Part shown: in pieces, positions 2 to 15,087 of the stretch | Numbering within the stretch: the first letter of the stretch is position 1 | Layout of the letters: each line of letters starts with the position of its first letter | Origin: Thermoproteales archaeon | GTDB taxonomy: Archaea; Thermoproteota; Thermoprotei; Thermofilales; Thermofilaceae | Length of the DNA: 39,627 bases | Assembly (NCBI GenBank): GCA_021163245.1 | Contig: JAGGXB010000090.1 | Span: 1-39,627 of the forward strand | Reading direction: 5' to 3' | Made by a program: the position numbers and the translations under genes | The notes under the pieces: model-generated | Database searches by the model: none | The model's input: only the letters and a program-made list of their open reading frames with translations | What the model was told of the DNA's origin: nothing

Positions 2-559
2 AATGAATATGAATTATTGAATTTTTTAAAAAATACGCCACTAGATATAACCTATTATATAAATAAGCTTAAAAATGAGGATGAAAAGGATTTGGTGATA
101 AAGGAAATATTGCTAGATATTAAATACTATGAATATTATTTTTCGACTTTAAAAGAATTTAAAAAATTTTTATTTCCTATGGTTAATCTTGAAAGGATAA
201 TAACATATATTTTTTGGTGCACAATGATTGGAGAAGAAAAAATAAGTAAACTTTTATTGCTATTTAATATTAAAAATTTAAATTATGCAGAAATTTCTCA
301 TGCATTAGGTTTATCTAAAAATGATTTACAAAGGCATCTAGAAAATAAACATTATATGCGTTTATTAGAGATAGCTGAGGATAATTTTATCAAGAAACTT
401 AAGAAAAATGTTCTTAGGAACAAAGACAACATATTCTTTGTATATTACTATATGATTGCCTCTTATTATGAGATGAAAAACTTGGAGAAAATTTTACTTG
501 GAAGAAAAATAGGGCTTCGTCCGGAAGTTATTAGAGGAACTTTAAAATTATTCATTTAA
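2..559 (+). CDS. atpC: A/V-type ATP synthase subunit C (5'-truncated by window edge)
   Basis: This is the C-terminal part of subunit C (the d-type subunit), the socket that joins the central rotor to the membrane c-ring. The reading frame is open to the left edge of the window without a stop, so the TTG at 17 is probably internal. About 185 codons are visible, against roughly 340-350 residues for the whole family. The end of the protein (NLEKILLGRKIGLRPEVI, followed by a short hydrophobic tail) matches the usual last helix of archaeal subunit C, and aromatic-rich helical segments precede it. Its stop overlaps by four bases the stop of atpK on the other strand. The neighbouring atpK, I, F, H and E genes support the call. 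Confidence 0.82.
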   Translation, partial: NEYELLNFLKNTPLDITYYINKLKNEDEKDLVIKEILLDIKYYEYYFSTLKEFKKFLFPMVNLERIITYIFWCTMIGEEKISKLLLLFNIKNLNYAEISHALGLSKNDLQRHLENKHYMRLLEIAEDNFIKKLKKNVLRNKDNIFFVYYYMIASYYEMKNLEKILLGRKIGLRPEVIRGTLKLFI

Positions 560-912
560 ATCTTACCGAGAATCATGATTGCTATAAGTAAGCCATATAT
601 GGCTATTCCTTCAGCTAAGCCTCCGATAATAAACATGTAAGATTTTAGCTCTGGTTTTTCAACAGCGGCAGCGAAACCAGATGAGGCCACTGAACGTAGT
701 GCTATACCTGCGGCTATACATGATCCAGTGACGGATATTGAGGCACTTAGAGTAACTAAACCTACTCCAATAAGATCAGTTACAGCTTGTTTATCCTTAT
801 AATCTGATACATTAGTTGTACTAGCATATACCTGTACTACAATTGCCGAGAATCCTATGATAAAGTTGAAAAGAATAATAATATTAGCTAATTTTTTTGG
901 GTCTATGTTCAT
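556..912 (-). CDS. atpK: A/V-type ATP synthase proteolipid subunit K (c-ring)
   Basis: Membrane rotor subunit that carries the coupling ion. From the chosen ATG the protein is 118 residues: an N-terminal hydrophobic segment that looks like a signal peptide (ending near VQVYA), then one hairpin of two glycine- and alanine-rich helices. The second helix carries the ion-binding glutamate in GGLAEGIAIYG. The ATG at 912 is chosen because GGGGA lies just upstream; a TTG nine codons earlier is possible but would spoil the signal sequence. The residues that often bind Na+ in other archaea (Ser/Thr after the Glu, a Gln in the first helix) are absent, which hints at proton coupling. It lies 57 bases downstream of atpI on the same strand. 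Confidence 0.88.
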   Translation of the reverse strand: MNIDPKKLANIIILFNFIIGFSAIVVQVYASTTNVSDYKDKQAVTDLIGVGLVTLSASISVTGSCIAAGIALRSVASSGFAAAVEKPELKSYMFIIGGLAEGIAIYGLLIAIMILGKI

Positions 913-969
913 TTGATGTCCCCGTCTTTCTATATACAACGTGTATTAACTCTTTAAGGCTAATAAATT

Positions 970-3837
970 TTACTTTTGGGCTATGGTTATAGCGGAAGGT
1001 GAGACAGGTATAAACTCCTGACCTCCCCCTCTAAAGAATTTAGTGGAAAATTCATAGTAAGTTAATCTAAGTGCTTGGATGCCGACGGCAAATGCTTCAA
1101 TTGACAAGACTAGGATATTTGTTATAAAGTAACCTATGGGTACACTTAAAATCGATGATAATTCGATAGCTAGGATACCAAATACTTCATGTGCAATAGC
1201 AAAAGCAGCAAGCCTTATATATGATAATGAATTAGCAGGATAGGCTACTATCATTTCTAATAGCTCAATAATACCGTTGGTAATTTCTTCGCTTTCACCT
1301 GTTTTTAGAAATTTCAAGAATGCTGAGATGAGCACTATTATTAATGTGCTTGAGATAATAATTATAAATGGTAACGCTTTAGGTGTTGTTAGAATACTTA
1401 GATTATAGCCGTTATCTATGACTAGATACGCTAAATATACACCACAAATATAGTAAATTAGTCCTATTAAACCTGTACCACCAAAAAATGCATGGTAATA
1501 ATTTTTCTCATTTATATCATTTATAATATTTATAGACATAGCTATTATTAGTTGTACTACTCCGAATAGTAATGCTATTCCTATTATAGTGTAGGGATCA
1601 TGTACAGGCTTCAATATTTTCCAAGGTAGAATATCAGCTAGAAAAGCCATTCCATAAAATAAACCGAAGATCATTGAAGATATACCAGCGAATAATGAGA
1701 GTACACCTAATGTTTTAGTATTTTCCTTGCTTATTCCAAAGATTTCCTTATCACTCCTATATAGAAGAAAGCCTAGAGATGAAATTATTGCACCCAGTCC
1801 TATATCACCAAACATAAGGCCATACATTGTTAAAAATAGTAGTGTAAAAATAAGAGTAGGATCTATTTCCCAATAGTTTGGAATTCCTCTAAGCAATGTA
1901 AGAGATACAAAGTATCTTAATATACCTTTTTTATTAAGGAGTGTAGGGGCCTCCTCACCAATTACAACATCTCTTATTCTAAAATAAATAATTCTTGGGA
2001 TTTTAGAGATGATAGTTTCTTTTAGATAGTTTACATATTTTTCTGGGATCCATCCATCAGCTATAAAAACTCTTCTATTGTGTAAAAGTGTCAATCCCTG
2101 TATATGGCTTTGTGCATTAAGTAAACTTTCAATAAATGGTTGCAGTGATAAAATATTTTTTCCTAAATCTACGAATTCTTCAATAATTTTTAACATATAT
2201 TCTTCATCAAGATATATTTTTTCAATATTTGGTTCCTTACCAATATTTTGAAGTATATTGTAGTTTTCTTTTAAAGATTTTATTACTTTTTCCGTATCAT
2301 CTATAATATTTTTAATTATCTCAAATCTTTTATCAGAAGGTATCATTCTGGCCTCTAGCTTTTTCATCTTTAAGGTTTCTAATTCATTAAATAATTTTAG
2401 ATATAGTGGATCATCAAGAGTGATTTTTCTTTTTTTGATATGATAATCAATTATTAGAAATAAAATTAATAATTTTATTTTCTCGATTTTTTCATTTAGC
2501 TCTTGGTCTATTCGTTCAATTGCTGTGGTTATGTTTTCCAAGATATAATCAGGTATCTCTATTTTATTCATCTTGTATCTCTCCATAACAGAGTTTATGT
2601 CTTGTTCGTTAATGGTTTTATGAGCTATGAGAATAGCTGATTCTGATGTATCAATATCTAGAAACTCCATTGCGGCTCCAATTTTTATTATTTCTTTTTC
2701 TATTTCATCTAAGTGATCTTTATTTCCTATGAAAATTGAAAGTTCTATATCGCCGATTTTTTTCCTAAGAAAGGAAGTTGTTGGGAATTTTGCTAGATAT
2801 TTTTCAATGATTTTTTTAATTGCTTTAAGTTTTTCAATGTTTAAAACTTCTTGTTCTATATCATTACATACTGTTGGATATATTTTACAATACTCCTTTT
2901 TCATTAATTCATCTATTAATTTTTCATCTATTTCTGAGGTCTCAAAGAGTTTTCTATAAATATTAAGCATCTTTTGTTCTATTTCAAATTTTTTTAAAAT
3001 ATCAAGATTTTTTTCCTCAAAAATTTTCCTAGTAGTTTTTATGACAATAGCTTCTTCTAGCATTTCTTCAACAAGTAATATGTTATCATAGATATTCTTA
3101 CATGCGTTTAATGCTAATTCCAATAGTTGGACTCTAGAGGCCTGTTCATACTCGAAAGAAGATATAAGAAGTGTAGCGAGTTCAGAAAGTAGATCGAATG
3201 TTCTTCTTTTTAATTCACGGATTCTCCTATCAATGCTGGAAAAAATAAAGTCACTGGACGTATACATCCATTCTGGTAATCGAACCTCTTTCAATTTATA
3301 TTTACTTATAATATTTGAAATTTCGATATCTAGATCTTTACTATAAACTAATACAATTATGATTTCTTCAGATGATAGAAATATAGTTTTTACTACGACT
3401 CTATTTTTCCTTAATTCATTTATTAATATCCTTAAAAATTTCTTATCTGCATAATACCATTTAAAGACCAATTTTTTAAACTCTTTTTTGAACACTAAGG
3501 GAGACATGTTTATTTCTAAAAGTTTCTCAATAATTTCTCTATAATAATTAATTTCTTTATATTCCTCATAGATTTTCTCCATCTCTAAACGAAGAATGTC
3601 ATCTTTATAGGTACTTTTTATAATAATTTTATAAGCTTCACTAATGTCTATTTTTTCAGAAGAAATACGGTTTTCGACGATTAATTGTAATAAAAGGGGT
3701 AGATGTGTTCTCGATCCATGAACAAGAGGTTTTAAATGTATTGCTCCTAAACTAATAAGACTATCCAAAAGATCATATTCATATTCCTCAGGTACAATTA
3801 CCTTAAATCGTAACATTTTTTCAGGTTTAATTAGCAT
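970..3837 (-). CDS. atpI: A/V-type ATP synthase subunit I (a subunit), unusually long
   Basis: Stator subunit that forms the ion half-channels against the c-ring and anchors the peripheral stalks. The membrane half (about residues 640-930) is typical: a YWEIDPTL-type entry, FGDIGLG, the essential channel arginine in LSYIRLAAFAIAHE (R875), and a RLTYYEFSTKFFRGGGQ ending. The N-terminus (KPEKMLRFKVIVPE) and the GWIPEK lobe near residue 595 are also typical. At 955 residues it is well above the usual 620-720. The surplus is cytoplasmic: a lobe plus coiled coil around residues 115-215 appears to recur around 345-455. It starts back to back with atpF. Confidence 0.93.
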   Translation of the reverse strand: MLIKPEKMLRFKVIVPEEYEYDLLDSLISLGAIHLKPLVHGSRTHLPLLLQLIVENRISSEKIDISEAYKIIIKSTYKDDILRLEMEKIYEEYKEINYYREIIEKLLEINMSPLVFKKEFKKLVFKWYYADKKFLRILINELRKNRVVVKTIFLSSEEIIIVLVYSKDLDIEISNIISKYKLKEVRLPEWMYTSSDFIFSSIDRRIRELKRRTFDLLSELATLLISSFEYEQASRVQLLELALNACKNIYDNILLVEEMLEEAIVIKTTRKIFEEKNLDILKKFEIEQKMLNIYRKLFETSEIDEKLIDELMKKEYCKIYPTVCNDIEQEVLNIEKLKAIKKIIEKYLAKFPTTSFLRKKIGDIELSIFIGNKDHLDEIEKEIIKIGAAMEFLDIDTSESAILIAHKTINEQDINSVMERYKMNKIEIPDYILENITTAIERIDQELNEKIEKIKLLILFLIIDYHIKKRKITLDDPLYLKLFNELETLKMKKLEARMIPSDKRFEIIKNIIDDTEKVIKSLKENYNILQNIGKEPNIEKIYLDEEYMLKIIEEFVDLGKNILSLQPFIESLLNAQSHIQGLTLLHNRRVFIADGWIPEKYVNYLKETIISKIPRIIYFRIRDVVIGEEAPTLLNKKGILRYFVSLTLLRGIPNYWEIDPTLIFTLLFLTMYGLMFGDIGLGAIISSLGFLLYRSDKEIFGISKENTKTLGVLSLFAGISSMIFGLFYGMAFLADILPWKILKPVHDPYTIIGIALLFGVVQLIIAMSINIINDINEKNYYHAFFGGTGLIGLIYYICGVYLAYLVIDNGYNLSILTTPKALPFIIIISSTLIIVLISAFLKFLKTGESEEITNGIIELLEMIVAYPANSLSYIRLAAFAIAHEVFGILAIELSSILSVPIGYFITNILVLSIEAFAVGIQALRLTYYEFSTKFFRGGGQEFIPVSPSAITIAQK

Positions 3838-3925
3838 TATTATCTAATCCCCATATATTTAAGATAAAAATTTAACTATGTTAGATATAAAGAGTCATAG
3901 TTTTAAAAATTACTGGTGGGTTTCA
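3838..3925. promoter_or_regulatory. Divergent promoter region between atpI and atpF
   Basis: This short AT-rich stretch separates the leftward atpI from the rightward atpF. A TATA-like run (atatatttaa, about 3852-3861) could serve the rightward unit, placing the start of transcription near 3880-3886. GGGGAT on the minus strand lies about ten bases before the atpI ATG. GGTGG at 3915-3919 precedes the TTG taken as the atpF start. Assignment is by eye only. Confidence 0.4.
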
Positions 3926-4243
3926 TTGAGCATAGTTGCTATTGGATCAGATATAGGTATTGAAACTCTCAAGATAATTGGTGCAAAAATACTAACGATA
4001 ACTGATGTTAGAGATGAAGAAGAACTATCTAAAGTTTATGGTTCTGTTATAAATTCTAAAGCTGTAATTATTGAAGATAATTTATATAGAGTTTTAAAAG
4101 CCGACCTAGAAAACATTATTTCAAGTTTACCAAGTCCTCCTCTAATAATAGTTGTACCTTCATTTACTGTACATGAAACTTCTAGATTAAGAGAAATACA
4201 TAATAAAGTATCTCTAGCTGTAGGGGTGAAATTAAAATGGTAG
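3926..4243 (+). CDS. atpF: A/V-type ATP synthase subunit F
   Basis: Small central-stalk subunit that sits with D in the rotor and influences ATPase activity. The fold signature is visible: a first strand SIVAIGSD, a middle AVIIEDN strand-loop, then PPLIIVVPSF and a C-terminal AVGVKL. I chose the TTG at 3926, which gives 105 residues, near the usual 100 or so, and has GGTGG six bases upstream. An in-frame ATG at 3878 would add a 16-residue extension rich in aromatic residues that the family lacks, but it lies close to the expected transcription start and cannot be excluded. The stop overlaps atpH by seven bases, so F-H-E are probably cotranscribed. Confidence 0.82.
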   Translation: MSIVAIGSDIGIETLKIIGAKILTITDVRDEEELSKVYGSVINSKAVIIEDNLYRVLKADLENIISSLPSPPLIIVVPSFTVHETSRLREIHNKVSLAVGVKLKW

Positions 4244-4548
4244 ATATAGATTTTACTAGACTTTTAGTGGCAGAAAGGGAGGCGGATAAAAGAATTGAAA
4301 AAGCACATAAAAGAGCCGACGAAATTTTAAGACAGGCTCGTGAGGAGGCAAGAAAAATATTTGAGGAGAAATCAAAGATAGATGAACAGGCAATATATGA
4401 AGAAATAAGGAATGAACTTGCAAAAGAATATGAGGATTTCTCTATAAGACTAGCTAACCAATTTGAAGGATTCAGAAAATATATAGAAGAAAATAGGGAG
4501 GAAATTATCCAGAAAATAGTTATGCTTACATTAGGTGTTAATTTATGA
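4237..4548 (+). CDS. atpH: A/V-type ATP synthase peripheral stalk subunit H (coiled coil)
   Basis: A 103-residue, highly charged, alanine-containing helix (for example AEREADKRIEKAHKRADEI) that should form a long coiled coil from about residue 8 to 70. This is the pattern of the H (AhaH, G-like) subunit, which pairs with subunit E to make the peripheral stalk binding subunit I. GGGGTGA lies eight bases before the ATG, inside the end of atpF, and its stop overlaps the atpE start by four bases. The sequence alone fits many coiled coils. Its position between F and E makes subunit H the best call. Confidence 0.77.
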   Translation: MVDIDFTRLLVAEREADKRIEKAHKRADEILRQAREEARKIFEEKSKIDEQAIYEEIRNELAKEYEDFSIRLANQFEGFRKYIEENREEIIQKIVMLTLGVNL

Positions 4549-5180
4549 GGGTTCAGGAGGAAAGAGAAATACTTGCTGCATTAATTAAAGAGATAGAAAA
4601 GGCTGCTGACGACGAAATTAAAAAAATTTTAGGAGAGGCGGAAAAACAGAAAGTGGAAATATTAAAAGAGGCTGAGGAAAGGGCATTAAAAGAAAGAAAG
4701 AAAAAAGAAATGGAAATTAGGCGAAAGGCTAGAATTGAGATTTTAAAGGAGTTATCGTTTAAAAGAATTTCGTATAGGAAAAAAATATTACTTGAGAAAT
4801 ATAAGTTAATTACAAGTTTAGTTGATGAAGCTAGGAAAATAGTAATTGATGAAGTTAGAAAAGGTAGTCATCTGTATTATCTAGGATTAGAAAAACTTTT
4901 AGAGGAAGCAGTCATAAATCTGAATAAAAATAATGTTATTATAATCTGTAATAAGAGAGATAGAGAAAATATTGAAGGAATGTTACAGAAAGTTTACGAA
5001 TCAATAAAGGAAAAATATAATAGAGAGTTTAATGCTGAAATTAGATCAACATTACCTGACGATGAATACGGTGTTATTGTTTTGAGCTCCGACAAGAGAG
5101 AGTATTATATAAATACTATTAGTTCTCGTTTTGATTATTATATAAAAGAGTATCTTCCAGAATTACTTTACAAGAAATAA
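4545..5180 (+). CDS. atpE: A/V-type ATP synthase subunit E
   Basis: Peripheral stalk subunit E, 211 residues, a normal length for the family. The first 110 residues are a continuous charged helix with AEKQKVEILKEAEERALKE repeats. The C-terminal domain shows the family pattern: a short strand VIIICNKRD, a helix, then DEYGVIVLSSDKREYYINTISSRFDYY, which corresponds to the conserved 'GGvvv...dg.i.v.NTle.Rl' region. Here the usual glycine pair is replaced by DEYG. It follows atpH with an ATGA overlap. The A, B and D genes that normally follow are absent; a convergent hydrogenase gene starts 40 bases on. Confidence 0.87.
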   Translation: MRVQEEREILAALIKEIEKAADDEIKKILGEAEKQKVEILKEAEERALKERKKKEMEIRRKARIEILKELSFKRISYRKKILLEKYKLITSLVDEARKIVIDEVRKGSHLYYLGLEKLLEEAVINLNKNNVIIICNKRDRENIEGMLQKVYESIKEKYNREFNAEIRSTLPDDEYGVIVLSSDKREYYINTISSRFDYYIKEYLPELLYKK

Positions 5181-5220: not shown

Positions 5221-5574
5221 CTATGCTTTGATTAATTCATCTCTATTTAATACGGCTAATTTGTATTCGTTAGTGGTTATATACGCTTTAACAGGACATA
5301 CTAAAACGCAGTGATAACAAAAGACACATGCATCATAATTGACTACTGCCAATTTTTTTCCAGGTTTTTTAGGATTAGGTATCATCTTGATTGTGTTTGA
5401 TGGACATTCACGTGCACATAGATTACATCCTATACATTTTTCATCATCGACATAATGCAATCCTCTATATTCCGGTGTTGCAGGTATATCTACTTTTACA
5501 GGATATTCGATAGTTGCTGGTTTTTTAAAGAGGTTTTTAGCCATTTCACTAATAAATTTTAGAGAGATTTTCAT
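5221..5574 (-). CDS. Complex I-like hydrogenase ferredoxin subunit (NuoI homologue)
   Basis: Electron-entry subunit of the energy-converting hydrogenase, 117 residues. Two complete CxxCxxCxxxCP motifs bind two [4Fe-4S] clusters: C47, C50, C53, C57 and C83, C86, C89, C93. The N-terminal stretch SLKFISEMAKNLFKKPATIEYP resembles NuoI/FpoI-type subunits, which lie on the membrane arm. Its ATG overlaps the stop of the large-subunit gene (ATGA), and it is the last gene of the B-C-D-I unit. No NADH- or F420-oxidising partner is nearby, so soluble ferredoxin is the likely donor (inference from group 4 hydrogenases). Confidence 0.92.
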   Translation of the reverse strand: MKISLKFISEMAKNLFKKPATIEYPVKVDIPATPEYRGLHYVDDEKCIGCNLCARECPSNTIKMIPNPKKPGKKLAVVNYDACVFCYHCVLVCPVKAYITTNEYKLAVLNRDELIKA

Positions 5575-6722
5575 TTTCTCAACTCTCTTATATTAATTAT
5601 TCTTTCATCACCATTCTGGTTAACTACAATGATTCTTTCCATACATGAGATACATGGATCAAATGATCCAAATATAACAGGAACATCAGCTAATACTACA
5701 TCTCTAAAAGCTATTCTACTTCCATTGAGAATATTGGGAAAGCTAGGTGTCCTTACTTTAACTCTGTAAGGTTTATCTCCTCCTTTACTTATCATATGAT
5801 AAAGAAGTTCGCCACGTGGAGCCTCGCTTCTAGATATTGCTTCTCCTTCCGGATATCTTCTTTTGATAAATTTAGGTGCTATAGGACCTGTGGGTAGATG
5901 ATCTAACAAATATTCGATTATATTTATCGATTCAAAAATTTCATCGATTCGTACAAGCATTCTAGCCCATGAATCTCCCTCACTGTAGGTTATCAAATTA
6001 AAAGGTATTTCGCCGAATGCAGCGTAGGGTTCATCTTTTCTTATATCAGTTTTTACACCTGAGCCTCGAGCTGTTGGTCCCACTAAACCATACTGAACCG
6101 CCTCATTTTTCTTTATTATCCCGACACCCTTTAATCTATTCAAAACTGTGGAATCCTCGCTAAAAACTTGTTTATATTTTTTCATCCTGACTTTCAATAA
6201 ATCTAGCGTTTTCTTTATAGTTTGTATCTTTTGATCATCGATATCTCTTTTTACGCCACCAGGCCACATAAAGTCTGCGATAACTCTTTGTCCAGTTACG
6301 ATTTCCTTAAGTTTCATTACTGGTTCACGATCCCTCATAATTAACATAAATAAACCCTGGAATCCCATAATTTCTGCTTCTACTGCTAAAACTAGGAGAT
6401 GGCTATGAATCCTTTCTAACTCACTGACAAGGCTTCTCAAATATCTTGCTCTTGGAGGAACCTCAATATTACCTATTTTTTCAAGTACCTGAACATAAGT
6501 TAATTGATGCACTATATTGCAGATTCCACAAACTCTTCCAAAAACATACATTGCTTGTAGAAAACTTTTAGATTCTCCAAGTTTTTCAATTCCTCTATGG
6601 TTATATCCAGTAATTACTTGTACATTTTCCACATGTTCTCCATCCACTCTTACCTTTAACATCAATGGTTCATGTAGAGCTGGATGTTGTGGACCGACAG
6701 GTATTTCAATGCTAGTTTTCAT
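5571..6722 (-). CDS. Group 4 [NiFe]-hydrogenase large subunit (NuoD-like fold)
   Basis: Catalytic subunit, 383 residues, related to NuoD (49 kDa) of complex I. Both active-site cysteine pairs are intact: C65 and C68 in GRVCGICN, and C357 and C360 in FDPCISCMER. True NuoD and FpoD proteins have lost them, so this should be a working [NiFe] hydrogenase rather than a quinone reductase. HRGIEKL near residue 42 and ELERIHSH are shared family motifs. The protein continues 20 residues beyond R363, the kind of C-terminal tail removed by HycI-type proteases after nickel insertion; such a protease is encoded at 14602. Start and stop each overlap neighbours by four bases (nuoC-like, nuoI-like). Confidence 0.95.
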   Translation of the reverse strand: MKTSIEIPVGPQHPALHEPLMLKVRVDGEHVENVQVITGYNHRGIEKLGESKSFLQAMYVFGRVCGICNIVHQLTYVQVLEKIGNIEVPPRARYLRSLVSELERIHSHLLVLAVEAEIMGFQGLFMLIMRDREPVMKLKEIVTGQRVIADFMWPGGVKRDIDDQKIQTIKKTLDLLKVRMKKYKQVFSEDSTVLNRLKGVGIIKKNEAVQYGLVGPTARGSGVKTDIRKDEPYAAFGEIPFNLITYSEGDSWARMLVRIDEIFESINIIEYLLDHLPTGPIAPKFIKRRYPEGEAISRSEAPRGELLYHMISKGGDKPYRVKVRTPSFPNILNGSRIAFRDVVLADVPVIFGSFDPCISCMERIIVVNQNGDERIINIRELRK

Positions 6723-7159
6723 TTTTTATCACTCTGCCAATCTTTTCTTAAGGGACAAACATTTATAATTGAAGAGGGTACGAAAAATCCTTTCCTAAGA
6801 TATTTATTACCTTTAAATTCGACACCTAGTAAATCATAGATTTCTTGTTCATATGGAATAGCTCCTGGGATAATATCAATTATTGAATCTAGAAAAGGTT
6901 GATCTCGTGGAATATCTGTCTTAATTATTAAGAGGGTTTTATAATCGTAAAACCAAATCTCGTAGTCAATTTCAAATATATTTTGTTCAATGTAATCTAT
7001 TCCAGTTATTGTTGCAAGATACATCTTATTATTAAACCTATTCCATAATTCTTTAATAGTATCCTTAATTCTTTCTTTAGGAATGCTCACAATAATTTTA
7101 TTTTCTTTTTCAGAAAATTCAAGTTTTTTCTCTATTAAAAAGTCTTTAATGCTCGACAT
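6719..7159 (-). CDS. Complex I-like hydrogenase 30 kDa-type subunit (NuoC homologue)
   Basis: Structural subunit next to the large subunit in the hydrophilic arm. The protein is 146 residues, comparable with compact NuoC, FpoC or EchD-type subunits. The signature lies near residues 100-120: IPYEQEIYDLLGVEFKGN, followed by YLRKGF, corresponding to the family pattern E.EiyDllGi.F.gh..L.R. No metal-binding motif is expected or seen. Its start overlaps the end of the small-subunit gene by 14 bases, and its stop overlaps the large-subunit ATG by four, so translation is probably coupled. NuoC and NuoD are separate here, not fused. Confidence 0.88.
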   Translation of the reverse strand: MSSIKDFLIEKKLEFSEKENKIIVSIPKERIKDTIKELWNRFNNKMYLATITGIDYIEQNIFEIDYEIWFYDYKTLLIIKTDIPRDQPFLDSIIDIIPGAIPYEQEIYDLLGVEFKGNKYLRKGFFVPSSIINVCPLRKDWQSDKK

Positions 7160-7592
7160 ACAACTCCTCCTCTTCCTTTATTTTCATCAAAAGTTTAACT
7201 ATGCCATCAATTATAGCCTCTGGTTTCGGTGGGCATCCGGGGATGTATACATCTACTGGAATAACTTTATCAACACCTTCTAACACACTATAAGAGCCCT
7301 TAAATACACCTCCACTAATAGCACAAGCACCTACAGCTATAACATATTTAGGATTTGGGGTTTGTTCATATATAGTTTTAAGTCGTTCAGCAGCTTTTTC
7401 AGTTACTGCACCTGTAACGATTAATATATCTGCATGTCTCGGACTAGGTGACAGTTTTATACCAAATCTTTCAGGGTCATAAAGAGGTGTTATTGCTGCT
7501 AAGACCTCTATATCACAGCCATTACATGCACCTGTATTAAAATGCGAAAGCCAAGGTGAAAGACGTATAAACTTTAAGTTCCATCGAGGCAT
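7146..7592 (-). CDS. [NiFe]-hydrogenase small subunit (NuoB homologue)
   Basis: Electron-transfer subunit holding the proximal [4Fe-4S] cluster next to the [NiFe] site, 148 residues. Ligands are C23 and C26 in NTGACNGCDIEV, C90 in VGACAISGG and C120 in PGCPPKPE. The CxxC spacing at the first pair is the hydrogenase form; complex I NuoB normally has two adjacent cysteines there. It is the first gene of the B-C-D-I unit, with a TATA element about 31 bases upstream of the ATG, so its mRNA may be nearly leaderless. Together with the large subunit it marks the cluster as hydrogenase. Confidence 0.94.
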   Translation of the reverse strand: MPRWNLKFIRLSPWLSHFNTGACNGCDIEVLAAITPLYDPERFGIKLSPSPRHADILIVTGAVTEKAAERLKTIYEQTPNPKYVIAVGACAISGGVFKGSYSVLEGVDKVIPVDVYIPGCPPKPEAIIDGIVKLLMKIKEEEELYVEH

Positions 7593-7616
7593 GTTATTTC
7601 GAGTATATGTTAGTAA

Positions 7617-7629
7617 GTTAATATATAAC
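7617..7629 (-). promoter_or_regulatory. TATA element of the hydrogenase B-C-D-I unit
   Basis: On the minus strand this reads GTTATATATTAAC, centred about 31 bases before the small-subunit ATG at 7592. Archaeal transcription usually starts 25-30 bases after the TATA centre, so the mRNA should begin at or just before the ATG. It lies in a 141-base AT-rich gap (7593-7733) separating the membrane-arm genes from the catalytic genes. I see no other gene in that gap. Confidence 0.5.
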
Positions 7630-7733
7630 TCTTTTTTATTTAATTAATTTAAATTATAGATTATATTTATTTAAAATAAATTTATAGTAATATATGCCAT
7701 AATTAGCATAGAAATTATAAGTTTGTAAAAGAT

Positions 7734-9152
7734 TTAAAGGAAAGGTATTAGAAGATAATCAATAATTATTGTAAACAATATGCCTATAGTTATTATGGCT
7801 ACAGCAAGAATAAACATACCAATAACTCTGTAACAATCTGTTTCCTCAGGAAGAGATTTAATCATAATGTCAGTTGGGTGCCAGAAAATCTTAAGCCAAA
7901 ATCTTAATGCATAAGCAGCCGAGATAATTAAAACGAACACAAAGGCAAGACTAATCTCTAGATATTTGCTTTGAACTCCACCAACTATTATCATAAATTC
8001 TCCTGGAAAGCAAGCTAGAATAGGCACGCCTGCTAAACTAAGCGAAGAAATTAGTCCAAAAAATGATGTAAAACGTGTATTTTTCATAAGAAGACCCATT
8101 TTTCTTATATCTTTTGTCTTGAATAGATGTGAGACTGTACCTGAAACTAAGAAGAATAGGCCCTTGCTGACTGCATGGGATAAAAGATGGAAAAGGCCTC
8201 CTATCAAAGCATAAATAGATCCTAAACCACCTAGACTTAATCCTAAAATAATATAGCCGGCGTGACTTATGCTACTGTATGCTGCTATTCTCTTAACATT
8301 ATTTTCCTTTAGGGCAAGAATACCACCATAGAAAGCTGAGAGTAAAGCTAGAAATGTAGTAATGTATAATAATTGTGGAATATTTTGGCTGAGGACTATT
8401 CTGTAAAAAGTATAGCCTCCTGTCTCAATTATAATGCCAGAAAGTATTGCTGAGATAGGTGTAGGTGCTTCACTATGAGCATCTGGTAGCCATGTATGTA
8501 ATGGAAATATTCCTTGTTTCGTCAGTAAAGCTATAGTAAATAGGGACATTATATACAGAATATCTGGATTCTTGTAGCTATGAAGTTGGGATATTAAAAC
8601 TATTCCATGTGAAACAAGTATTGCTATTGCTATAAGCATTAAAAGTGAACTTGCATGTGTAAATAAGAAAAATTTAATTGATGATCTATATCTTTTTTCT
8701 CCGCCCCACCATAATATTAGTAAAGTTGATGGAATAAGCATAAATTCCCAGTATATATAAAATATTGGTAAGGTTTCTGTAACAAATATACCTATGAGAC
8801 TTGTATAAAGTAGTAATATAAGAATGGTATATGAAATATATCTTTCTTTTATTTCGGAGTATGAATAGATAATAATTGCAATATATAATACTGCCGTCGC
8901 TGTTATCATTAAAAATGAAATTCCATCAATATAATCTATTACTGGTATACTGTAGAGGGTTAGTTTTTCAGAATAATAGAATAAAAATTCTTTTATTTTT
9001 CCCTTTGTAACAAATAATGTTAGAATAATAAAATATGAGACTAAGACAGAAATAAGAGCTACTATAGTTTGTCTTTTTTTCTCCTTAATGAAAAATATGG
9101 AGAATGAAACTATTGCAGGTAATATTGTTGCTAAAAATATTAGAGGTATCAT
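7734..9152 (-). CDS. Proton-pumping antiporter-like subunit (NuoM homologue)
   Basis: Membrane subunit of 472 residues with about 14 predicted helices, related to NuoM and Mrp-type antiporters. Key positions by eye: E136 in IYWEFMLIP (helix 5 Glu), K212 in LLTKQGIFPLHTWLPDAHSEAP (helix 7 Lys), and a retained Glu in FPGEFMII corresponding to NuoM E407. The helix 8 lysine that E. coli NuoM has in LLKTAAY is replaced by glutamate (E243 in IIETGGY). Its ATG overlaps the stop of the NuoN-like gene by one base (TAATG). It is the last gene of the membrane-arm unit. Confidence 0.92.
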   Translation of the reverse strand: MIPLIFLATILPAIVSFSIFFIKEKKRQTIVALISVLVSYFIILTLFVTKGKIKEFLFYYSEKLTLYSIPVIDYIDGISFLMITATAVLYIAIIIYSYSEIKERYISYTILILLLYTSLIGIFVTETLPIFYIYWEFMLIPSTLLILWWGGEKRYRSSIKFFLFTHASSLLMLIAIAILVSHGIVLISQLHSYKNPDILYIMSLFTIALLTKQGIFPLHTWLPDAHSEAPTPISAILSGIIIETGGYTFYRIVLSQNIPQLLYITTFLALLSAFYGGILALKENNVKRIAAYSSISHAGYIILGLSLGGLGSIYALIGGLFHLLSHAVSKGLFFLVSGTVSHLFKTKDIRKMGLLMKNTRFTSFFGLISSLSLAGVPILACFPGEFMIIVGGVQSKYLEISLAFVFVLIISAAYALRFWLKIFWHPTDIMIKSLPEETDCYRVIGMFILAVAIITIGILFTIIIDYLLIPFL

Positions 9153-10534
9153 TACAGACCACCTAATATATAAAATAGGTCAGGCCATAAGCCTAGAACT
9201 ATAAGAAAAATACATGCAAAGTATAGGGGGAGAAATATTTCTTTATTTTTTATGTTGGCTCCTTCACCTTCACTTGCAACTTTAAATATTATCAATAAAG
9301 AGTATGATACACAAACAAGGAAGAAAAAGGCTGCTATATATCCCAGCCAGTATTCAAAGGTCTCCATTAGGTATGAAAGTATAAATAGTTTTGCGTAGAA
9401 GCCAGCGAATGGAGGTATACCCGCCATACTCAAGAAAAATATACTTAGCAAGATTGCTGTCATAGGTTGTCTGACAAATAATCCTGATAATTGGTTTGAA
9501 TTTATAGGTTTATTGTTTTGTTCTAATGATCCGAATATTATATATAAGGAAGATATTGCGATATTACTAGTTACAACAAAGAATGAAATCATCCATGGGT
9601 CTGTCATTTGAAGTATAGATTCTGCAATAACTCCTACTATTATATAACCTGCATCAGAAATTATGCTGTATCCTAACATTCTTCTAGGAATTTTTTGTGA
9701 GAGTGCAGAAATTTCACCTATGCTCATAGAAAATAAGGCAAGTAAGACCATTATGGCTATAAAACTTGCATGGATTATCTTATAAAGATTTACGGAAAAA
9801 ATTGCTAAAAATAATATTAAACTGGTATCGCCAACTAAAATTGAATAAGCAACGGAATAAGATGGAGCACCTACTGTAACATCGGGAAGCCACATATGAA
9901 ATGGAACTAGTCCTATTTCCATTGATATTCCTGTTATTAGAAAAGCTGTAGCAACAGGTAATATATATTCTACATTTGTCTCTGTAAAGAAAAGAAATAT
10001 TCCCATAACTATGAATGAAGAAGAAATCAATATTGTTAGAATATACTTTATTAACGCTTCAATGCTTGTTTCTTTTTCATAAAAATATAATCCGATTGAT
10101 GAAATAGTCATTGTTTCTAATCCTATTAACGGTAATATGCTGTGTATTAGAGATTTCTTTATCAGTAAAGAGTTTGTGAATGGAATACTTGTGTATATCA
10201 ACATTAATGAACCTGAAAGAAGCGTAAGTGCTGAAATTACCTTTGTATGTGATCCGTTAGACGCTATAATTTCATATATGAATAGGAATCCGAAAATGAG
10301 TAGTATCCACAACGTGGCTCTAAGAGAGGGAGATATTTCGAAAAGTATATCGTTTTGTAATATTTTGTTTTCTCCACTGAATGCAAATATATTTAGAATC
10401 GCTAAAGATATGAATAGTATCCCTACATATAAGATCATTATTTCTTTATTTTTTTCTTTGATCTCTTTGATTAATAATGGTAGTCCGTAAAACGCTGGTA
10501 GAATTATTTCTAATAATACAATCCATTCATTCAT
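9152..10534 (-). CDS. Antiporter-like subunit (NuoN homologue) with reversed channel charges
   Basis: Membrane subunit of 460 residues; the pattern LVPFHMWLPDVTVGAP and LSMAGIPPFAGFYAKLF is that of NuoN, the antiporter-like subunit nearest the hydrophilic arm. The ATG at 10534 is chosen because GGAGGTG lies seven bases upstream. E140 (helix 5, LETMTIS) and the helix 12 Lys are kept. The helix 7 lysine found in NuoN (K217 in E. coli, FKLSLVPFH) is glutamate here (E206), and the helix 8 lysine (K247) is aspartate (D236). The codons GAA and GAT are clear in the sequence. The fold call is firm; whether it still pumps in the usual way is open. Confidence 0.9.
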   Translation of the reverse strand: MNEWIVLLEIILPAFYGLPLLIKEIKEKNKEIMILYVGILFISLAILNIFAFSGENKILQNDILFEISPSLRATLWILLIFGFLFIYEIIASNGSHTKVISALTLLSGSLMLIYTSIPFTNSLLIKKSLIHSILPLIGLETMTISSIGLYFYEKETSIEALIKYILTILISSSFIVMGIFLFFTETNVEYILPVATAFLITGISMEIGLVPFHMWLPDVTVGAPSYSVAYSILVGDTSLILFLAIFSVNLYKIIHASFIAIMVLLALFSMSIGEISALSQKIPRRMLGYSIISDAGYIIVGVIAESILQMTDPWMISFFVVTSNIAISSLYIIFGSLEQNNKPINSNQLSGLFVRQPMTAILLSIFFLSMAGIPPFAGFYAKLFILSYLMETFEYWLGYIAAFFFLVCVSYSLLIIFKVASEGEGANIKNKEIFLPLYFACIFLIVLGLWPDLFYILGGL

Positions 10535-12435
10535 GGTATCCACCTCCATATAACTGATGAGATCAATAAGATTAGCAATCCGAGTATATACATAGAAATA
10601 TATGTGAATATTCTACCGCTATGTGTTTTTCTTAATGTTTTACTTAGCCAAAATCCGAGTGTTGATATGTTTTCGATTAGCCTATTGATCAATAAATCTA
10701 AGCTATATGCAACTTCAGTGAATGACCATTTTAAAGCCGGTAATGCGTAATGTTCATAGAAATAATCAATGAAAAATGCATTGAATAAAATATTCCAAAG
10801 AGACGATAAGAATCTATTAGAGAAAATGTTTTGCCAAGGTCTTTTAACGTATAAAAGGTACACTATTAATAGAGCAATACAAAGTATTGATGTACTTACC
10901 GTTAAGCTGTAATAACTAGGTATTTCTATAAATGTTATTTCATTAAATAATGTTTGAAAAATGAAAGGAGATATGATAGTAAGAAGCGATAGAAATATTA
11001 GAGGAAGTGTCATTACTTTTGGAGGATTCTTGATCTTAAAACTTTTTTCTGGCTTTGAGAAAAAGATAATGTACGTAACTCTTAGTATATAAATTACAGA
11101 CAATAATGATGTTAGAATAAAAATGATACTTAGTATCGGGACTTTTTCAAATGTTTTAATTATATTTTCCATTATGAGGTCTTTACTCCAAAAACCATTA
11201 AAGGGGGGAAAACCAGCTAAGGCGAGGGCTCCGAATAAAAATGAGATTGTTACGCTTGGCATCTTCTTTGCAAATCCACCCATATATCTTATATCTCTGC
11301 TTACCTCCAGTCCTAGTATAGGTTCAATACTATGGATAACACATCCTGCAGCCAGAAAGAGCAATGCCTTAAAAATAGCATGGTTTGCTAAATGTGTAAC
11401 ACATGAATCAATAGCCAAAGATGGAGTAATAAAGGCAACCAGTCCTAATGTCGTAAACATGTATCCTAACTGGCTTATTGTTGAATAAGCAAGCACGCCT
11501 TTTACATCATATTGTGTAAGAGCTATAGAAGCCGCTAAGAATGAAGTAAAAATTCCTATGAATAACACCGTGTTTGAAAACATGGATATAAGAGATGGTT
11601 GTAATCCTGCATATATGAAGAGTAAGATTTCTAATCTTGCAACTAGATACACTCCTGCTTTTACCATTGTTGCTGCATGTATCAGTGCTGAAACCGTTGT
11701 TGGTCCCTCCATAGCATCTGGAAGCCATACATGTAACGGAAATTGAGCCGACTTACCAACACTACCAGCAAAGAGTAGTAATAGAATCATGTTTAGTGAT
11801 GAAGTAGGGATGCCTGTTATTCTCTGACTTAATTCCACTAATGATAAAGTACCTGTATTTAAGTAGAGTAGAATGATTCCGGCTAACATTAATGTGTCGC
11901 CTATACGTGTAGTTATAAATGCCTTTATACCTGCACGTGATGCCTTAGGTCTCATGTACCAAAATCCTATTAAGGAAAATGAACAAAAACCAACTATTTC
12001 CCAAAACATGTATAGTAAGAAAAAGTTTCCTGAAATCACCAGGCCGATCATTCCAAAAATAAAAAGTAATATCAACGCATAATATCTTACATAGTCCTTA
12101 GACTCATGCATATACCCAATAGAATAAATTATTATTATCAGCCCAATCAAAGACACTATAAAAAGCATAACAAGTGTTAACCAATCTATAAAAAACTCTA
12201 GATTTGCAAAGGGTAACTGGAAGAAGAAATTACTAAATTCTCTTATAACGATATAATGTTTAATCGATTTTTGGAACGTAACCAAATATGTCGTTAAACT
12301 GAATGTTAATAATCCAGTAATAACAGAAAAAATTTCACAGATTTTCCTTTTGAAATATTTACCAAGTATTAATATTAGAGAGCTAGCTATAAATGGTAGA
12401 AAAAGTATACTTTCAAGTAAAATTTTTATATCCAT
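10531..12435 (-). CDS. Distal antiporter-like subunit (NuoL homologue)
   Basis: The largest membrane subunit, 634 residues. Signatures: E146 in MFWEIVGFCSFSLIG (helix 5), K228 in GSVGKSAQFPLHVWLPDAMEGP (helix 7), HAATMVKAGVYL (helix 8), and a retained Lys-Asp in NGFWSKDLI (helix 12). All proton-path residues of NuoL are therefore present. The C-terminal 100 residues contain a long, less hydrophobic segment followed by a last membrane helix, as expected for the lateral helix of NuoL that ties the membrane arm together. The ATG at 12435 is preferred, with GGGG six bases upstream; a TTG two codons earlier is the alternative. The stop overlaps the NuoN-like ATG. Confidence 0.93.
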   Translation of the reverse strand: MDIKILLESILFLPFIASSLILILGKYFKRKICEIFSVITGLLTFSLTTYLVTFQKSIKHYIVIREFSNFFFQLPFANLEFFIDWLTLVMLFIVSLIGLIIIIYSIGYMHESKDYVRYYALILLFIFGMIGLVISGNFFLLYMFWEIVGFCSFSLIGFWYMRPKASRAGIKAFITTRIGDTLMLAGIILLYLNTGTLSLVELSQRITGIPTSSLNMILLLLFAGSVGKSAQFPLHVWLPDAMEGPTTVSALIHAATMVKAGVYLVARLEILLFIYAGLQPSLISMFSNTVLFIGIFTSFLAASIALTQYDVKGVLAYSTISQLGYMFTTLGLVAFITPSLAIDSCVTHLANHAIFKALLFLAAGCVIHSIEPILGLEVSRDIRYMGGFAKKMPSVTISFLFGALALAGFPPFNGFWSKDLIMENIIKTFEKVPILSIIFILTSLLSVIYILRVTYIIFFSKPEKSFKIKNPPKVMTLPLIFLSLLTIISPFIFQTLFNEITFIEIPSYYSLTVSTSILCIALLIVYLLYVKRPWQNIFSNRFLSSLWNILFNAFFIDYFYEHYALPALKWSFTEVAYSLDLLINRLIENISTLGFWLSKTLRKTHSGRIFTYISMYILGLLILLISSVIWRWIP

Positions 12436-12437
12436 CC

Positions 12438-12722
12438 TCAACCCCTCAGTTTATTCATTTTTTCAAGATCCTCAATATGAAAAACTCTGAAAATATACAA
12501 TCCTATGGCTAAAAATATACCAATAAGTATAGAATCAATAAGTGAAATGATGATGAATAGGGAATAAGATATGCCAAAAATAATAGAAGTTGCTAATGAT
12601 GCCGAAGATATAAATTCTAACGCTATAAATATTCTTATAAAAGACACTCTCCTTAGCAAGCCATAAATTCCTATTAAAAATAAGCTTAACCATGAACTTA
12701 TAATTAATAACTGGAATATCAT
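12438..12722 (-). CDS. Small membrane subunit (NuoK homologue)
   Basis: A 94-residue protein with three predicted membrane helices. The second carries E36 in FIALEFISSAS, matching E36 of E. coli NuoK in sequence context and position. The third helix lacks the second conserved glutamate (E72 in E. coli, AAAEASIG); the nearest acidic residue is D63 in SLIDSILIG, one place out of register by eye. The ATG at 12722 is chosen because it overlaps the NuoJ-like stop (ATGA); a longer frame upstream would run through NuoJ-like coding sequence. It lies in the conserved J-K-L order. Confidence 0.86.
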   Translation of the reverse strand: MIFQLLIISSWLSLFLIGIYGLLRRVSFIRIFIALEFISSASLATSIIFGISYSLFIIISLIDSILIGIFLAIGLYIFRVFHIEDLEKMNKLRG

Positions 12723-13159
12723 TTTTTCAACCTCGCTAATATGTTTGAAATTACAAGAAAACCCGTCACAAATATAACAGAGATAGTTATAAAAAATATC
12801 AAGGAGAACCAATTTTCTGGTAAAGGAGTTTTTATCCTTTTAAATCCAATAAATAAAGGAAAGAGAACCATTAGAAGAACTATAGTTAGGGAGGCTGCTA
12901 CAGGATATTCATTTTTATCGTTTGTTTTTCTTACAGCTTCAAAAGACGTAAATATTAAAGCTGTCAATATACTAGATGCAAATGATATTTGTACTATTGC
13001 TGCTATATAATTTTCAGTTATAAGATAGATTAACGAAAATATAAACAGTGTAAGACTACCTGTGAAAATAGCTCTTTTCTCATTATCAACTTCGAATGTA
13101 TATAGACCTAAAAGTACAATAGATATGAGAATAGATGAAGCTGCTATTAGTTCTATCAT
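12719..13159 (-). CDS. Membrane subunit (NuoJ homologue)
   Basis: A 146-residue membrane protein with about five predicted helices. A mid-protein segment ENYIAAIVQISFASSILTALIF resembles the NuoJ region around helix 3 (the usual 'a...vivYvGAI.vLflFviMm'), though the usual tyrosine-glycine pair is not conserved. The ATG at 13159 shares a base with the NuoH-like stop (TAATG), and starting here removes an N-terminal extension that merely reads through the end of the preceding gene. Position between H and K matches the canonical H-(I)-J-K order. The call rests on context as much as on sequence. Confidence 0.8.
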   Translation of the reverse strand: MIELIAASSILISIVLLGLYTFEVDNEKRAIFTGSLTLFIFSLIYLITENYIAAIVQISFASSILTALIFTSFEAVRKTNDKNEYPVAASLTIVLLMVLFPLFIGFKRIKTPLPENWFSLIFFITISVIFVTGFLVISNILARLKK

Positions 13160-14157
13160 TATAACACACCTCTGTAGAGGAATGTTAATGATAAAACAAG
13201 TAAAATCAGAGGGGTAGTGAACCATAATAATTTCTGTGCACTGAAAAGCTTTATTCTAGATAATCCTGTGTCGAATAAACCGACCAGAATAAGGATTAGA
13301 AATCCACCTAATATCAACATGACAATTTCTAGTATGCCATTTACCGGTATTATATGTCCAAAGAATAAAACAAAAGTTAGGATTACTATAATCGTTTCAT
13401 GAATTTCATGTATCAAGTGGATGAAAGCAAGTCTCCTTCCTGTAAATTCTGTAGAATATCCTGCGACGATCTCAGTCTCTGCCTCAGGTATAGTAAATGG
13501 ATTTTTTTCTAATTCCGCTTGCAAACTTAATAAGGTTATAACAAAAGCTATTAACCAGAAAAATATCATAATTGGATGATTTAATAATGAAGGAATTATA
13601 GAATGATATATTTCTTTAATCGAGAGTTTACCTGTAATAACAGCAGGAACAAGATAAGATAAAAAAATAGGAATTTCGTAAGAAAAGGATTGATGTAACA
13701 ATCGTGAAGATCCTATATATGGATAAACACTATTTGTTGCAATACCAGCTAAAGCCATAATCGATGAGGAAAATGCTAATAGTACTAAGACCAAAATAAG
13801 ATCACCTTCGAAAGATAAATTTAATGAGTACGAAAATAGATTTATTCCATTAAACCACGGTATAAATAGCATGGGAAAGATCGAAAAAATCAGGGAAAAT
13901 GCAATTGCATAATTTACTAATTCATTATCTCCTCCGTCTATATCTATTTCTTCCTTATGAAGTAGTTTCAAGAAGTCTAAAAATGGCTGAAATATTCCAA
14001 AGGGACCATTATAGCTTGGCCCCATTCTGTTTTCCATTCTAGCCTCGATTTTTCTCTCAACCCATTCAATAATTAGAGCGAGAAATATAGTGAAAACAGT
14101 TCCCGGGAACAGTGTTGAATATATTAATAGTCCAAATATTTTTTCAAGCCCATACAT
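13159..14157 (-). CDS. Membrane anchor subunit (NuoH homologue)
   Basis: The subunit joining the hydrophilic and membrane arms, 332 residues and eight or more helices. Motifs are clear: EWVERKIEARMENRMGPSY near residue 30, GPFGIFQPFLDFLKLLHKE, and the cytoplasmic loop NPFTIPEAETEIVAGYSTEFTGRR near residue 220, equal to the complex I loop PFDLPEAESELVAG. In complex I this region forms the quinone cavity and start of the proton path. In a hydrogenase it should relay the redox signal without quinone, as inferred for other group 4 enzymes. It follows the NuoA-like gene closely on the same strand. Confidence 0.95.
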   Translation of the reverse strand: MYGLEKIFGLLIYSTLFPGTVFTIFLALIIEWVERKIEARMENRMGPSYNGPFGIFQPFLDFLKLLHKEEIDIDGGDNELVNYAIAFSLIFSIFPMLFIPWFNGINLFSYSLNLSFEGDLILVLVLLAFSSSIMALAGIATNSVYPYIGSSRLLHQSFSYEIPIFLSYLVPAVITGKLSIKEIYHSIIPSLLNHPIMIFFWLIAFVITLLSLQAELEKNPFTIPEAETEIVAGYSTEFTGRRLAFIHLIHEIHETIIVILTFVLFFGHIIPVNGILEIVMLILGGFLILILVGLFDTGLSRIKLFSAQKLLWFTTPLILLVLSLTFLYRGVL

Positions 14158-14163
14158 GTTGAA

Positions 14164-14478
14164 TCACTTAATGATGAGTTTTTGCAGTACTAGAAAAAGT
14201 ATTATAGAAAGAACCATAAGAGATAAGCTCGTAAAAATAAAGTTTTGTGAAGATAGTAATGTGAAAGAGGTAACTATAGGAACAAATTCTAAAACAATAA
14301 ATAATATAAAATATTCGACTTTTCCTCTAAATATAATAAATTTTAATGCTTCTCCTTTTTCACCACAATAATAAGGTTTTGTTTTTCTCTTGGATTTAGA
14401 AGATATAGAACTGGAAGCAATATAAAGAAGTAAAACACTAAAAACGACTCCTATGAAGCAGATCATTATATCAATCAT
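14164..14478 (-). CDS. Small membrane subunit (NuoA/NdhC homologue)
   Basis: A 104-residue protein with three predicted helices. After the first helix comes a basic loop with KTKPYYCGE (C38), the counterpart of the NuoA/ND3 loop (PYECG) whose cysteine reports the active or inactive state in mitochondrial complex I. The second helix contains a glutamate (FIVLEFVPI) near the NuoA position of the conserved acidic residues. The ATG at 14478 is preferred because AGGTGA lies five bases upstream; a GTG three codons earlier overlaps that site. This is the first gene of the membrane-arm unit. Simpler group 4 hydrogenases such as Ech have no NuoA-like subunit. Confidence 0.82.
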   Translation of the reverse strand: MIDIMICFIGVVFSVLLLYIASSSISSKSKRKTKPYYCGEKGEALKFIIFRGKVEYFILFIVLEFVPIVTSFTLLSSQNFIFTSLSLMVLSIILFLVLQKLIIK

Positions 14479-14601
14479 CGAAGTCACCTACACTTTACAT
14501 AGTTAAAATACCTAAATATTAACATATTGTGTTTTTTGTATGTCATTATTCAGGAATATTAAAGCTATTATACGTGTTTTTTATATGATATTTGAAATTT
14601 G

Positions 14602-15087
14602 ATGAAGATTGAGGAACATATAAAAGAACTTGTTAGGAGTAAGAAGACATTATTTGTATGTATGGGTAATTTACTGAGAGGAGATGATGGAATTGGATCA
14701 TATATTTGTCATAAGATATTGGAGATAAAACAGTGTGACAATATTTTAATAGTAGGGTCATATTTAGAGAATGCTTTGGGAAAGATAATTGAAAAAAGAC
14801 CTAAAAATATAATTTTTATAGATGCAGTTCATACAGATAGCGAAGAAGGTACTATTATTTTTAAGAAAATAAATAATGATGATTTTGCAAAAAATTATCC
14901 TTTGACCACGCACTCTATTCCGTTTCCTCTATTATTAAAGTTTATAAAAAATGAATTACGAGATGTTGAGTTTTACTTACTTGGGATATGTGCATCTCAT
15001 ACTTCGATAGGTAATTCTATTTGTAGTAAAGTTAAAGAAAGTGGCGAGACCCTCTTCAGGTTTCTTTCTAAGGAGATAGTTTGTTAA
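14602..15087 (+). CDS. Hydrogenase maturation protease (HycI-type)
   Basis: Nickel-dependent endopeptidase that removes the C-terminal tail from the large subunit after [NiFe] assembly; 161 residues, normal for the family. Motifs: MGNLLRGDDGIG near the N-terminus with the metal-binding aspartate, FIDAVH in the middle, and TTHSIPF with the metal-binding histidine. The ATG at 14602 is taken as the start; a TTG directly before it is possible. It is transcribed divergently from the membrane-arm genes and 124 bases away, and its expected substrate (tail after R363) is encoded in the same cluster. Its stop overlaps the DUF362 gene stop by 20 bases. Confidence 0.93.
   Translation: MKIEEHIKELVRSKKTLFVCMGNLLRGDDGIGSYICHKILEIKQCDNILIVGSYLENALGKIIEKRPKNIIFIDAVHTDSEEGTIIFKKINNDDFAKNYPLTTHSIPFPLLLKFIKNELRDVEFYLLGICASHTSIGNSICSKVKESGETLFRFLSKEIVC

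Follow-up and report, generated by a model that had tools for sequence, protein, structure and literature searches.

Each antiporter-like subunit's share in complex I pumping is an open question, as is why some relatives of the enzyme pump fewer ions. The locus described here raises both questions in one protein: a NuoN-like subunit of an archaeal hydrogenase operon carries acidic residues at slots that hold lysines in E. coli NuoN. We asked whether this charge swap is real, how far it extends through the complex and through related genomes, and what it may mean for proton movement.

The operon and its NuoN-like subunit

The window, i.e. the whole stretch of 39,627 nucleotides that was analysed, is contig C42 of an archaeal draft genome of 1.95 Mb. 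Eleven Fpo/Nuo-like genes (A-D and H-N) occupy positions 5221-14487, while electron-input modules are absent. On the minus strand they run from 14487 to 5221 in the complex I-like order A-H-J-K-L-N-M-B-C-D-I, which is identical to the gene order of loci L147-L149. A, C and J were identified by position and weak matches. The genes and their neighbours are as follows.

14164-14487, minus strand: NuoA-like subunit (placed by position and similarity to A in related operons; without a family match)
13159-14157, minus strand: NuoH-like membrane anchor (PF00146, 2.6e-62)
12719-13225, minus strand: NuoJ-like subunit, exact start not set (placed by position and similarity to J in operons of this type; no family above cut-off)
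12438-12722, minus strand: NuoK-like subunit (PF00420)
10531-12441, minus strand: NuoL-like subunit with canonical channel residues (TIGR01974 above cut-off)
9152-10549, minus strand: NuoN-like antiporter subunit with the acidic channel, 465 aa from the first ATG (Proton_antipo_M, 2.9e-29)
7734-9152, minus strand: NuoM-like subunit (TIGR01972 above cut-off)
7146-7592, minus strand: NuoB-like/hydrogenase small subunit (PF01058, TIGR01957)
6719-7159, minus strand: NuoC-like subunit (operon position and matches)
5571-6722, minus strand: NuoD-like large subunit with both [NiFe] motifs, CGICNIVH and DPCISCMER (PF00346, PF00374)
5221-5574, minus strand: NuoI-like 2x[4Fe-4S] ferredoxin subunit (family match)
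14599-15087, plus strand: HycI-like hydrogenase maturation protease (TIGR00072 above cut-off; TIGR00142, 6e-24)
556-5180: A-type ATP synthase genes adjoining the hydrogenase operon (PF00137 at 571-747; V_ATPase_I at 973-3837; c-subunit sequence)
556-939, minus strand: ATP synthase c subunit (PF00137 and sequence)
3878-5180, plus strand: small ORFs in the ATP synthase region (assigned by position only)

Judged from its subunit set, motifs and pairwise similarity, the operon appears to specify a [NiFe] energy-converting hydrogenase of the Hfo type (subgroup 4g), built like complex I from 11 subunits. Hfo was described as an Fpo-like 11-subunit [NiFe] hydrogenase of this subgroup from Bathyarchaeia (Bathy-6), with relatives in Methanomethylicus and Pyrodictium delaneyi (Loh, Herve and Brune 2021, PMC7886697). 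According to that paper none of the 4g enzymes is characterised, and its main text does not mention the antiporter subunits (PMC7886697). The window shares with Hfo the 11 subunits and the [NiFe] L1 and L2 motifs in D; its D is up to 52% identical to D of relatives in pairwise comparison, and it is the sole match of its kind in the window's genome. All subunits are of complex I type, and no separate Mrp-like Na+ module was found in the operon, whereas the Mrp-type MBH and MBS have one. By analogy with complex I, N would be the subunit nearest the redox module. The search yielded no structure of an Hfo enzyme, so the orientation of the membrane arm relative to that module is a matter of analogy; in MBH, MBS and FHL the arm is rotated (PMC9474812).

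An ATP synthase c subunit shares a contig with the hydrogenase in G001 and G004 as well. In three genomes of one family (G344, G397 and G291 of f15, probably Bathyarchaeia) in which the hydrogenase is present, a search of the whole genomes gave no ATP-synt_C match, which may reflect genuine absence or a divergent c subunit. Elsewhere in the window (15068-39546) lie genes for a DUF362 protein, a Rad51-like protein, anaerobic ribonucleotide reductase with a radical SAM protein, a GH38 alpha-mannosidase, galactose-1-phosphate uridylyltransferase, PheRS and an oligopeptide ABC transporter. These neighbours suggest that the host is a fermentative heterotroph.

The charged residues of the NuoN-like channel, all on the minus strand and numbered from the first ATG, were located by alignment with E. 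coli NuoN.

10115-10117, minus strand: E145, the retained TM5 Glu (E. coli Glu133)
10046-10048, minus strand: K168, the retained TM6 Lys (E. coli Lys158)
9917-9919, minus strand: E211 (GAA), TM7, slot of E. coli Lys217; residue 206 if the second ATG is the start
9827-9829, minus strand: D241 (GAT), TM8, slot of E. coli Lys247; residue 236 if the second ATG is the start
9713-9715, minus strand: E279, an extra acid of the window's sub-clade (E. coli Asn285)
9653-9655, minus strand: D299 (GAT), TM10, slot of E. coli His305, which is mostly His/Gln in complex I NuoN
9389-9391, minus strand: K387, the retained TM12 Lys (E. coli Lys395)

A first-pass annotation of this DNA had placed a glutamate (its E206) and an aspartate (its D236) where the helix 7 and helix 8 lysines normally sit, and the alignment bears this out. 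From the VPFHxW motif through GAP to TM8, the protein aligns without gaps to NuoN of E. coli MG1655, with E211 on K217 and D241 on K247, and the helix 5 Glu and helix 12 Lys that the annotation described as kept are present as E145 and K387. Pairwise phmmer opened a 2-residue gap in the loop between VPFHxW and TM8, and one MAFFT run displaced the TM8 region of the window protein by one residue. Because neither Lys nor Arg occurs among residues 169-256 (between K168 and K257), the absence of lysine is independent of the alignment, and no alignment could place a lysine at either slot.

The closest NCBIfam model is TIGR01770 (NDH_I_N), at 145.5 bits and thus below its cut-off of 332.6. An AlphaFold2 model of N (mean pLDDT 78) has its helices in the expected places, and its best PDB matches in Foldseek are complex I N/ND2 subunits. 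The likeness to NuoN/Nqo14/ND2 covers the fold (TM-score about 0.8 to E. coli and Mycobacterium N), the TM5 Glu, the TM6 and TM12 Lys and the VPFHxW motif; the window differs in its TM7 Glu, TM8 Asp/Glu, TM10 Asp and a displaced acid in NuoK.

Conservation, descent and the link to the [NiFe] site

A profile built from 12 sequences was searched in 398 genomes of one phylum. Thirty-six genomes scored at least 416 bits and the next best 284, marking a discrete clade. In every one of the 36, TM7 carries Glu and TM8 carries Asp or Glu, and no close relative has a lysine at these slots. E211 is invariant among the 12 sequences, even though relatives are only 22-30% identical to the window protein. 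The clade retains the TM5 Glu and the TM6 and TM12 Lys, and has Asp at the His305 slot throughout, except for Gly in two (L148 and L149). The main differences from complex I NuoN in the charged columns are therefore K217 to E, K247 to D/E and H/Q305 to D, with N285 to E added in the window's sub-clade only; no compensating basic residue conserved across the clade appeared in this comparison. Since every relative found shares the swap, it is real and not a sequencing quirk, and is probably a functional redesign of the proton path. The alternative charge pattern proposed in the first-pass annotation thus outlasts both the alignment and the comparison with relatives.

When trees are built without the trait columns, the acidic N proteins form one clade that is sister to complex I N, with bootstrap/SH-aLRT support of 98/94, which falls to 87/78 once more divergent rows are included. 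The TM7 Lys is present in nearly all of the M-, L- and Mrp-like antiporter subunits placed in these trees, so the acid at TM7 is most simply a derived state. The window N is very divergent and sits on a long branch, and its exact place inside the clade is unsure.

Two further [NiFe] lineages carry a doubly acidic antiporter subunit. In loci L153 (861-8297), L154 and L155, which belong to relatives of the window's family that we take to be Thermofilum-like, the antiporter subunit of the [NiFe] complex has Glu at TM7, TM8 and TM12 (E/E), and the NuoK-like subunit has Gln for Glu36. Loci L265 (8554-16602) and L266 (3-7285) contain a second [NiFe] hydrogenase cluster of smaller size (B, D, H and I plus L-like and N-like subunits); in the second small hydrogenase of G187 and G136, TM7 of the N-like subunit bears Asp and a Glu lies near the TM8 slot (D/E). 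The notion that all acidic cases form one clade is unsupported: the E/E and D/E proteins fall on separate long branches, a placement that calls for caution given the branch lengths. This makes three separate [NiFe] lineages in all.

Related changes also occur outside the [NiFe] enzymes. In G030 and G031, N of a non-NiFe complex I has Glu at TM7 and retains the TM8 Lys; as the TM7 Glu was gained and the TM5 Glu lost, the acid of the pair has moved helix. In the window's class, L146 (2066-3538, plus strand) and L268 (2214-3683, minus strand) show TM5 Glu to Thr/Ser together with TM7 Lys to Glu, in non-NiFe complex I N subunits whose TM8 Lys is intact. Comamonadaceae-type complex I NuoN has Gln (L079, L094, L097, L115 and L134) or Glu (L105, L109 and L117) for the TM8 Lys, with the TM7 Lys retained and Gln at the His305 slot.

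The acidic N proteins go with a hydrogenase rather than a quinone enzyme, in line with the hydrogen reaction to which the first-pass annotation linked the charge pattern. A D-like large subunit with both strict [NiFe] patterns was present in 32 of the 36 acid-N genomes. In L152 the patterns are divided between two ORFs. Three acid-N genomes deviate in one motif: G004 reads DPCFCC in L2 and retains the CxxC, G002 leaves the L2 pattern unmatched, and L149 (1602-2822, minus strand; G082) has FGIC for CGIC in L1 and so lacks one of the four [NiFe] cysteines, with L2 and the acidic N retained. The search of one genome (G344) yielded no large subunit. In several genomes D and N are on separate contigs or well apart, and there the link is one of co-occurrence only. 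[NiFe] motifs were absent at all 23 loci with a NuoN bearing both lysines (K/K) and a large subunit in range, and the sister complex I NuoN proteins have both lysines in nearly all cases and no [NiFe] motif. Loci L153-L155 provide a control within the same genome, where a non-NiFe complex has a K/K N and the [NiFe] complex has the E/E antiporter subunit.

The association is not proof of adaptation, because it reflects mostly one evolutionary event; with mainly one origin of acidic N plus [NiFe], it has little statistical weight. The acids may simply have been fixed once in an Hfo ancestor, with no specific link to hydrogen chemistry, as the single clade and the scarcity and long branches of the E/E and D/E lineages would allow. 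The recurrence of doubly acidic subunits in three [NiFe] lineages and the K/K subunit of the non-NiFe complex in the same genomes speak against history alone, which we nevertheless regard as a possible, if tentative, account. It concerns the cause of the association and can be compatible with any of the mechanisms considered below.

Loss of the TM7 Lys has precedents. MbsH of the Pyrococcus furiosus MBS has Glu (E219) at TM7 with the TM5 Glu and TM12 Lys; however, it retains the TM8 Lys (K250), and MBS reduces polysulfide without a hydrogenase reaction and has a Na+ module (PMC7684303). HycC of E. coli FHL, also an antiporter subunit of a group 4 hydrogenase, has lost the TM7 Lys and retained the TM5 Glu, but its TM7 residue is the neutral Leu208, its TM8 Lys239 is kept and TM12 bears Glu391 (PMC9474812). 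MbhH (PDB 6cfw) and E. coli HyfF are homologous antiporter subunits of [NiFe] group 4 enzymes in which the TM7 Lys is retained, and E. coli Hyf was rejected as a parallel on this ground. A literature search for an acidic TM7/TM8 pair surfaced only MbsH E219 and HycC Leu208, and no description of a conserved acidic TM7 and TM8 pair with a NuoK shift was found in the literature searched.

Changes in the neighbouring membrane subunits

The first-pass annotation had treated the change as local to TM7 and TM8 of N. The two acids stand, whereas the confinement does not: the change also reaches N TM10, NuoK and TM8 of M. In the window NuoK, E36 is retained (12615-12617) and the second acid, D63 (12534-12536), lies one turn ahead of the E72 slot. 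Asp or Glu at slot 69 with an uncharged residue at 72 was found in all 26 acid-N NuoK entries listed, against E72 in 56 of the 59 K/K-locus entries. The other three come from Thermofilum-like loci that contain the [NiFe] operon as well. Glu36 is retained in acid-N loci, apart from Asp in two entries of one species. Judged from these sequences, the acid swap in N and the shift in NuoK appear to be a coordinated change.

L and M were said to keep the helix 7 lysine, and they do so as K230 and K212, respectively. L has canonical channel residues, whereas M has E243 (8424-8426) in place of the TM8 Lys265, and E385 at TM12. The TM8 slot of M is Glu, Ser, Gly, Ala or Asn in relatives. Loss of this lysine was rejected as a specific marker: Nitrosopumilus-type complex I shares it, so the change in M is less specific.

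A candidate carboxylate relay and competing explanations

Our joint best explanation, to which we give an even chance, combines an Hfo-type enzyme, a derived clade of acidic N, a carboxylate relay and fewer protons moved. In the derived clade, carboxylates have taken the place of three buried basic groups in the N channel (TM7 Lys, TM8 Lys and TM10 His), and the second NuoK acid is displaced by one turn, with the TM5 Glu, TM6 Lys and TM12 Lys unchanged. These substitutions are seen directly, as are their conservation, their clade and their co-occurrence with the [NiFe] large subunit and the NuoK shift, whereas the mode of action is inferred from sequence. The resulting carboxylate row (the NuoK acids, E145, E211, D241 and D299) may act as a protonatable acid relay, closer in kind to the E-channel of NuoH with its chain of glutamates than to the Lys/Glu switch of an antiporter module. 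Most acids along the N axis would need to be protonated or to share protons, and what basic residues remain there are the lysines of TM6 and TM12. Such a relay could carry protons or charge between NuoH-J-K on one side and M/L on the other while pumping no proton of its own; N would then skip the standard Lys/Glu ion-pair switch and fewer protons would be moved. The energy span from ferredoxin to H2 permits about one proton per two electrons, and a smaller number of protons would fit this small span, which is a fit and not proof.

The suggestions of the first-pass annotation, that N may not pump in the usual way or that its charges suit the lower energy of the hydrogen reaction, stay conjectural. 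Mutants of E. coli NuoN bear on how much the lysines matter. K217A pumps normally in liposomes (PMC13073174), so loss of the TM7 Lys alone need not stop pumping. K247A is severe, and this mutation removes the protonatable group rather than swapping in Asp; in these mutants the TM7 Lys is dispensable for pumping while the TM8 and TM12 Lys are not, and those listed include no acid-for-Lys swap (PMC13073174). N may thus remain a full proton pump in which carboxylates replace the lysines as protonatable groups at the same stoichiometry. All key positions are indeed protonatable, the TM5 Glu, TM6 Lys and TM12 Lys are retained, N is under strong constraint, and MbsH, with its E219 at TM7, is still regarded as a pump by its authors (PMC7684303). 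However, the axis differs in formal charge by as many as about five units and no conserved counter-charge offsets this, NuoK is rewired in parallel, and the MbsH precedent keeps its TM8 Lys; from general bioenergetics, the energy from ferredoxin to H2 is too small for several protons. We therefore find an unchanged pump rather doubtful.

N could also be a pump-dead structural spacer that holds the membrane arm and transmits conformational change, having lost lysines thought essential for pumping, much as FHL HycC lacks the TM7 Lys (Leu208, PMC9474812). Decay predicts mixed residues, whereas TM7 Glu is invariant and TM8 always acidic at 22-30% identity, which makes this reading improbable. Equally improbable is a Na+-translocating enzyme in which the acidic cluster serves as the Na+ site. 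Carboxylate-rich membrane sites are able to bind Na+, and the related MBH and MBS are thought to move Na+, yet through a separate module (PMC7684303), whereas the operon holds only the complex I-like set. The neighbouring rotor also looks H+-type by eye: its c subunit has neither a Ser/Thr after the Glu nor a helix-1 Gln. These residues are the marks of Na+-type c rings, so H+ rather than Na+ is the likely coupling ion. Finally, a sequencing error (GAA for AAA is one base at TM7) or a misalignment is ruled out for practical purposes, as 36 genomes share the acids and no Lys/Arg lies between residues 168 and 257.

Beyond the relay itself, a wider idea can be put forward tentatively, namely that antiporter charge chemistry follows the redox partner. 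In complex I-like machines that use H2, N would have changed at least once, and perhaps three times, from a pump based on a lysine switch to a proton wire of carboxylates, with its junction to NuoK rewired. A full-length membrane arm of the complex I kind would then run with fewer pumping modules.

The clade thus offers a double, mostly triple, natural charge swap at residues targeted by mutagenesis, carried by a whole clade together with a differing NuoK acid. Should the acidic N prove not to pump, Hfo would be a natural complex I-like machine with one module running in another mode; should it prove to pump, then pumping could do without buried lysines at TM7 and TM8. Either outcome constrains models of complex I.
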